A stretch of DNA of 64,000 nt. It comes from Parvularculaceae bacterium. GTDB lineage: Bacteria > Pseudomonadota > Alphaproteobacteria > Caulobacterales > Parvularculaceae. The notes below the pieces were generated by a model, which was given only the letters and a program-made list of their open reading frames with translations, was not told where the DNA came from and did not search any database. The stretch lies in the NCBI GenBank assembly GCA_021776475.1, contig JAJFFV010000006.1:558001-622000 (forward strand), given 5' to 3'. Shown here piece by piece: positions 21,727 through 24,469 of the stretch (positions are counted from its first letter, which is position 1; every line of letters starts with the position of its first letter). The translations under genes and the position numbers were made by a program.

Positions 21727-23130
21727 TCAGGATATTTGGTCACCAAGGCGTGCAAGCGCCTCTATTTTCCCCAGGACAAAAAGGGTTTGCCCCAGAGAAG
21801 GAGCGGGGTTTCCTGCCGTGAGTGCGGCCCGCAATGGCTGACCTATCTGGCCGAAGCTAACACCTTTTTCATCAGCGATACTTTGTAGTAACTTCTCCAG
21901 CTTGTCTTCGGTCCAGTCGCTGACAGCGGCCAATAATTCATGCGCTTCACGAAGGATCTCAGTTGCGCCGTCCCTCCGAATAGGTTTGGAGGTCTTGCCG
22001 CTGAGTTCGAACGGACGGGAGATCAAAATAAACGCAGCGGCAGATGGCACCTCGGCGAGGTTTTTTGCGCGCTGTTTTAGAAATGTGGTCGCCCGCAGCA
22101 ATTGCTCGGTTTGCGGTTTCGAAATATTGGGTGCATCCTGCTTAATGAATGGCATTGAAAGTTCGATAAAGGCGTCATCGCCGAGCTGGCGCATATAATG
22201 GACATTCACACTATCAAGTTTGTCCGTATCAAGACGGGAAGGCGCCTTGCCTATTCCCTTCAGATCAAACCATTGCTTAGCCTGGAGTAAAGGAATAATT
22301 TCATCATCGCCATGTGACCAGCCGAGACGCAGTAGGTAATTCGACAGCGCCTCCGGCAGATACCCAAGATCCCGATAGGCATCTACGCCAAGATCACCGT
22401 GGCGCTTGGAGAGCTTCGCGCCGTCAGCTCCGTGAATCAGGGGAATGTGGGCAAATGCTGGTGTTGGCCATCCGAGTGCTTTATAGAGCTGTTGCTGGCG
22501 GGCCGCGTTGATCAAGTGATCATCCCCCCGGATAATATGACTGATCGCCATATCATGATCATCTACAACGACAGCCAACATGTAGGTTGGCGTACAGTCT
22601 GATCGGAGAAGCACCATGTCATCAAGGCTAACCGACGAAAACCTGACATCATCTTGTACTAGATCACTGACAACAATCTCGCCTGACTGGGGCGCTTTCA
22701 ATCTTATGACGTAAGGCTCGTTTGGTGTCTTGCCCATATGGTCACGCCAGGGGCTTTCAAACCGCGTCTGGTTGTCTCTCGCCTGTTTTTTGGCCGCGGC
22801 AAGTTGTTCCCCGGCGAGCCAGCAGCGATAGGCATGTCCGGCATCAAGCAATTGATGAGCGACCGCTACGTGACGTTCGGATCTCGAGAATTGAGAAATT
22901 GGGTCTCCGTCCCAGTCGATCCCGAGCCACGACAAACCATCAAGAATAGCGTTGACGGCCTCTTCATTGTGGCGGGCACGATCAGTATCCTCGATTCGCA
23001 GAAGGAATTTACCCTGTTTGGTTACACTCGTGCGCCGTGCATAAAGCCAGTTAAATAAAGCCGTACGCGCACCACCTATATGGAGGTATCCTGTGGGAGA
23101 AGGAGCAAAACGAGTAACTATCTGGTTCAT
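21727..23130 (-). CDS. gltX: glutamate--tRNA ligase
   Basis: RFAPSPTGYLHIGGARTALFNWL; KLSKRHGDLGV. Confidence 0.96.
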   Translation of the reverse strand: MNQIVTRFAPSPTGYLHIGGARTALFNWLYARRTSVTKQGKFLLRIEDTDRARHNEEAVNAILDGLSWLGIDWDGDPISQFSRSERHVAVAHQLLDAGHAYRCWLAGEQLAAAKKQARDNQTRFESPWRDHMGKTPNEPYVIRLKAPQSGEIVVSDLVQDDVRFSSVSLDDMVLLRSDCTPTYMLAVVVDDHDMAISHIIRGDDHLINAARQQQLYKALGWPTPAFAHIPLIHGADGAKLSKRHGDLGVDAYRDLGYLPEALSNYLLRLGWSHGDDEIIPLLQAKQWFDLKGIGKAPSRLDTDKLDSVNVHYMRQLGDDAFIELSMPFIKQDAPNISKPQTEQLLRATTFLKQRAKNLAEVPSAAAFILISRPFELSGKTSKPIRRDGATEILREAHELLAAVSDWTEDKLEKLLQSIADEKGVSFGQIGQPLRAALTAGNPAPSLGQTLFVLGKIEALARLGDQIS

Positions 23131-23232
23131 GGCTGTGATATATTTCCTTACGCAACCAAAGGTCGCCCATCTTAAAAAGCGCGACTTAACACGTTACAGG
23201 AAAAGTCGCCACGCCTGAGCGTTTGAGATTTG

Positions 23233-23650
23233 AGCGTTTTCCACAAGCGCAATCAACGGCGGCGCCACACAGTGGCTTGACCGGGAGCAAAGAAAATCTC
23301 GCTTTGCGCGTCGCGGTACTGATCGGCATTTGTAGCGGAATATATTTTGGCTTTCAAAAGAACAAATCGTCTGGCTGACAGCATCTTGCGAATTTGCGGC
23401 CTATTTATTGTCGGCGGATTGTTTTTTGTCTTTTGCGGAGCTCTTTGAGGGTGCCTGGTGCAGAAATTCTGTTAGGTGCCCTTCATGGGTACGCCTGTGA
23501 GGCAAAAAAATATATAGACCTTCAGGATTGAAACTGATCAGGGGGCTGAGTACAGGCTTTGCTAAGCAGGGAAGGCATCGCAAGCATTATTATCAGGCGC
23601 AACAAGGTGATATTAACGCTCTATCGCGGGGTAACAGGCCGTAGGCGACC
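23233..23650 (+). pseudogene. probable comEC relic (N- and possible C-terminal fragments; frameshift, stops and a large internal loss)
   Basis: No intact ORF. Frame at 23270: QWLDRE; frame at 23286: SKENLALRVAVLIGICSGIYFGFQKNKSSG*; further GLFIVGGLFFVFCGAL in another frame; ...INALSRGNRP(TAG) near 23615-23644. Located between gltX and lexA. Confidence 0.45.
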
Positions 23651-23683
23651 AGAACTGACCAAGGGACGTAACCCCAAGCCTCC

Positions 23684-24406
23684 CTAATACTGCCGCATCA
23701 GCCCGACGAGTTTGCCTTGGACCTTGACCCGGTTCGGGCCGAATATCCGTGTCTCATAGGCTGGGTTAGCTGCTTCCAACGCAATAGAGGCGCCCTTCTT
23801 GCGCAACCGTTTCAAAGTCGCTTCTTCTTCGTCGACTAACGCCACCACGATATCGCCTGAGCCCGCATCGTCGGATCGCTGGATCAAGACCACATCACCA
23901 TCATGGATCCCGGCTTCAATCATCGAGTCACCCTGTACTTCCAGGGCGAAGTGCTCGCCCGATCGTAGCATGGATTTGGGGACAGAGAATTTGTCCTGCT
24001 CATGCTGGATCGCACTGATGGGCGTGCCGGCCGCGATCCGGCCCAACACGGAAATTTCGACAACATTCTCGTTTGTGTTGACAGGCAGTTCTTCAACATT
24101 GCCTTTCTTGCCTGAAGCTTTTCCGCGGCTGCCTTCGATAACAGAGGGAGAAAATCCTGTTGCCCGACCTGAAATTGCCTCCACCGTTACGTCGTCCGGC
24201 ATTCGAAGGACTTCCAGCGCCCGGGCACGATGGGCAAGGCGGCGGATGAAGCCGCGCTCCTCGAGCGCTGTAATGAGCCGGTGGATGCCGGACTTGGACT
24301 TCAGATCAAGCGCCTCCTTCATTTCGTCAAAAGAAGGAGAAATACCGCTCTCGCTGATACGTTGATTTATATAGACCAACAGTTCGCGCTGTTTGGCTGT
24401 CAGCAT
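23684..24406 (-). CDS. lexA: LexA repressor (SOS)
   Basis: [60 protein letters not shown] at 24406 preferred over the ORF-track start at 24460. Confidence 0.96.
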
Positions 24407-24469
24407 GGTTTTACCTTTCTGGCTGTCCACCCTCAGGAGGGTGCAACCACTTGAGAACAAATCATATAC

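Follow-up and report, generated by a model that had tools for sequence, protein, structure and literature searches.

We conclude with high confidence that the spacer between gltX and lexA in the 64,000-nucleotide stretch of DNA analysed here (the window) is a comEC pseudogene in an advanced state of decay, and the orthologue of the gene at the gltX-comEC-lexA locus. The comEC product is an inner-membrane channel for single-stranded DNA that serves both natural transformation and the reception of DNA from gene transfer agents (GTAs). The intact system with which we compare the relic is the ComEC/Rec2 DNA internalisation channel (Pfam families PF03772, Competence, and PF13567, DUF4131), at the alphaproteobacterial gltX-comEC-lexA locus.

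The gltX-lexA locus

The spacer (window 23131-23683) contains no intact gene and no open reading frame (ORF) longer than 60 aa, in agreement with a preliminary description of this DNA. The features of the locus are as follows, with residue numbers taken from the 730-codon open frame of the congener G001, so that the numbering may begin ahead of the true start.

21727..23130 (-), gltX (glutamyl-tRNA synthetase), intact left neighbour, 467-aa ORF
23190..23362 (+), comEC relic, N-terminal piece (profile residues 1-59), from frameshift-tolerant alignment
23407..23471 (+), comEC relic, end of the Competence-domain region (residues 538-559), with a frame change near 23420
23562..23603 (+), possible comEC piece (weak), residues 697-710, LSREGIASIIIRRN versus IERSGALSIKLKKR
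23615..23644 (+), comEC relic, C-terminal RGxRP motif and then TAG (NALSRGNRP-stop; residues 717-725 are 23615-23641)
23684..24460 (-), lexA, intact neighbour on the right; coordinates are those of the longest ORF, and the gene probably begins at an ATG inside it

A comparison with sister loci, as the preliminary description had proposed, places the spacer in the orthologous position, flanked by gltX and lexA as in congeners. All five congeners examined have the gltX(-)/comEC(+) arrangement, and in four of them lexA(-) is directly next. The window gltX is 65-70% identical to the comEC-adjoining gltX of the five congeners, and the window lexA is 79-85% identical to the comEC-adjoining lexA of congeners. 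Among 80 further loci, 56 hold both genes and 43 of these 56 are ordered lexA-comEC-gltX, so the synteny given in the preliminary description holds. The distance from gltX to lexA is 553 bp in the window versus ~2.26 kb in G001 and G003 (both Aquisalinus bins), a loss of more than 1.6 kb from the spacer.

Homology of the spacer to ComEC

Plain tblastn and blastn searches of the spacer against congener comEC gave only matches at E of about 0.002-0.003, and we therefore turned to profile alignment and shuffles. An Rfam search of 23000-23800 gave no match at E up to 1. A profile was made from ComEC proteins of relatives, the five congeners included, and the spacer was aligned to it by a DNA-to-profile dynamic programme in which frame changes and large gaps are permitted. 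At gap cost 20 the chain score is 70.6, with the pieces collinear and on the same strand. This is beyond chance: dinucleotide shuffles have a mean of 34.5 (sd 5.6, maximum 59.3) and none of 1000 reaches it, nor does any of 448 other window tiles (maximum 61.2), and the reverse strand (39.4) and reversed profile (27.9) are low. Gap costs of 10, 15 and 30 give concordant results; the loosest penalty (G=10), at which spurious short words were chained, was excluded from the anatomy, and the segment 23374-23403 (residues 272-281) was likewise left out. The anchored N-terminal piece by itself is matched in score by 0/5000 shuffles and 0/912 tiles and is decisive for ComEC homology. The C-terminal piece is weak alone (112/5000 shuffles), and its position relative to lexA and its RGNRP motif support it.

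The N-terminal piece changes frame near 23264, 23291 and 23350, and includes TQWLDREQ (residues 28-35; the G001 counterpart is EWLREEQ) and ENLALRVAVLIGICSGIYFG (residues 36-55). In the middle piece IVGGL followed by VFCLLRSSLRVPGAEIL is aligned to IAGGLILCLLRSPMRLAGAFLI, where VFCLLRSSLRVPGAEIL (residues 543-559, 23421-23471) is in a different frame from IVGGL. The fragments named in the preliminary description were all found on the plus strand in the frames it gave; of GLFIVGGLFFVFCGAL, which it had also read as comEC, only IVGGL stands, and the rest does not, the homology continuing in the other frame as VFCLLRSSLRVPGAEIL. Likewise, the relic span had been put at 23233-23650, which does contain comEC fragments, but the relic is wider, running from about 23190 to 23644. 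The weak piece at 23562-23603 appears at looser gap penalties only. Directly after RGNRP is the TAG codon, at a position where 73 of 73 aligned ComECs have the Trp that had been expected there, and so the RGxRPW motif at the C-terminus of these alphaproteobacterial ComECs is not complete in the relic.

What is lost is the middle of the protein, about residues 60-537, and the greater part of 560-716, and with them nearly all of the Competence domain; no PF03772 match in an open frame is found, the genome being without a match and the relic frames interrupted. Deletions took away about four fifths of comEC, including nearly all of that domain, and small indels and a nonsense change scrambled the remainder. 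The earlier proposal of a large internal deletion plus point decay is thus supported by congener synteny, above-chance homology, the lack of another comEC and the central loss, except that at least two deletions are needed. The relic resembles ComEC/Rec2 at the gltX-comEC-lexA locus in position, strand, order, N-terminal region, the segment near residue 540 and RGxRP, but about four fifths is missing, there are several frame changes, and a stop replaces the last conserved Trp; unlike ComEC/Rec2, it is not functional.

Alternative explanations

Single fragments of the relic are short, its C-terminal fragment is weak alone, and Pfam has no relevant match in the three short spacer ORFs, all of which would fit a chance resemblance to ComEC in unrelated non-coding DNA left by a clean comEC deletion. 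We consider this extremely improbable, since neither shuffles nor tiles reach the chain score, no shuffle equals the N-terminal piece, and order, strand and position with respect to gltX and lexA match those in congeners; for the N-terminal and middle pieces chance is refuted. It is only slightly less improbable that the spacer has come to encode a small membrane protein derived from the ComEC N-terminus. A 51-aa ORF at 23223-23378 is indeed open and has one hydrophobic stretch, a likely transmembrane helix, but it begins with TTG, its frame shifts against that of ComEC to either side of the helix, and it has no Pfam match above cut-off.

That comEC is intact in the organism and broken by an assembly or sequencing error deserves next to no credence, even though the genome is a draft in six contigs. 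The flanks and all comEC pieces lie within one contig, such an error would need more than 1 kb of missing sequence together with a stop and frame changes, and dprA, comM and comF are missing too. A decayed comEC orthologue remains by far the best account of the spacer.

Other DNA-import genes in the window genome

The genome that contains the window is 99.5% complete, and we found no comEC elsewhere in it either with the Competence HMM, which detects comEC in 57/61 genomes (congeners included), or with the G001 ComEC protein as query. Neither of the outcomes that the preliminary description had named as counting against it, a lack of ComEC similarity or an intact comEC elsewhere without synteny here, was therefore observed. 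The search that it had suggested for comF and comM was similarly empty, and the loss goes beyond comEC: dprA (PF02481), comM (TIGR00368) and comF (TIGR00201) were not found in the window genome and are present in all five congeners. For comM and comF the loss is an absence of HMM matches, and the weak matches in the window genome are of a low-scoring kind also seen in other genomes. The marker of gene transfer agents, GTA_TIM, is absent as well, GTA presence being judged here and below from this one domain.

The dprA locus of congeners reads rimK, an AstE/AspA-like gene, dprA, topA. In the window genome about 270 bp separate rimK from topA. This interval contains a 44-bp stub that shares 82% identity with the AstE/AspA-like gene in G001, together with the leader of topA, which is conserved; no dprA remnant was found. 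Given the stub and the leader, the absence of dprA is a true deletion with a legible scar rather than an assembly gap. The scar lies at about 4410-4640 of L138 (G000:C1), and dprA and nearly all of the AstE/AspA-like gene are gone from it.

Because dprA, comM and comF are missing too, the comEC relic is part of a lost DNA-import pathway, and the cell is almost certainly unable to import DNA by the ComEC route, which is intact in most of its relatives. DNA import would no longer have been under selection, perhaps through loss of the GTA, and the import genes would then have decayed together. Pseudogenes are common and the decay of a gene is nothing unusual; that comEC, dprA, comM, comF and the GTA marker are lost together in one species is moderately interesting. 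Since the recipient genes and the GTA marker are missing here and congeners keep most of them, this lineage offers a natural way to test whether the "competence" genes of alphaproteobacteria serve GTA receipt or transformation by free DNA.

comEC loss in relatives and across the order

In the congener G005, an insertion that carries two IS3-type transposase genes interrupts comEC, and residues 603-729 resume beyond it, followed by lexA. Both this comEC and the window relic are broken genes at one locus within one genus, in genomes without GTA_TIM, but G005 has the two transposase genes inside comEC and retains dprA, comM and comF, which makes the order of gene loss testable also. In a tree of gltX+lexA the window genome is the sister of G001+G003+G005, and thus it lost comEC in an event distinct from the G005 insertion. 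The split gene of G005 occupies L119 1-3100, with L035 5386-7416, and both parts are otherwise readable.

A second comEC relic lies between lexA and gltX in G024, of the same family and another genus (L125 2212-3550; score 370 versus a shuffle mean of 53). It has in common with the window relic its locus, an internal deletion, frame changes, and the lack of dprA and GTA_TIM, but is less decayed, lexA and gltX still being about 1.34 kb apart. It is an independent loss, at an earlier stage of the same decay.

Across the order, 9/219 genomes have no Competence match, and eight of the nine lack GTA_TIM. The exception, G026, is not a secure loss, since its lexA sits at the end of a contig and the genome has both GTA_TIM and dprA; its lack of comEC is probably an assembly gap. 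Six genomes with split or partial comEC were added (G005, G036, G064, G092, G114 and G158; the two comEC parts of G036 sit at the ends of two contigs) and G013 (78% complete) was excluded. GTA_TIM is then absent from 12/15 genomes with absent or split comEC versus 11/69 with intact comEC (Fisher p about 3e-6, which ignores kinship and uses controls that are not a random draw). The corresponding figures for dprA missing or present as a fragment only are 7/15 and 1/69, that one genome being 66% complete.

ComEC, ComF, ComM and DprA act in the receipt of RcGTA DNA, as cited in a passage of Kogay and Zhaxybayeva (2024; PMC10883770), and comEC, comF and dprA co-evolve with GTA genes (Kogay and Zhaxybayeva 2024). 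Our order-wide comEC/GTA_TIM pattern is in line with that co-evolution, and GTA loss may have preceded competence-gene loss. It is possible, although we rate it at somewhat less than even, that comEC, dprA, comF and comM are kept in this order mainly as the receiving side of the GTA system, with GTA loss removing selection on them. If so, loss of the GTA, recurring independently in several genera, would be expected to leave comEC relics behind.

In three genomes (G011, G045 and G050) the comM matches are divided between two places on the same contig, about 4-14 kb from each other, which suggests insertions into comM.
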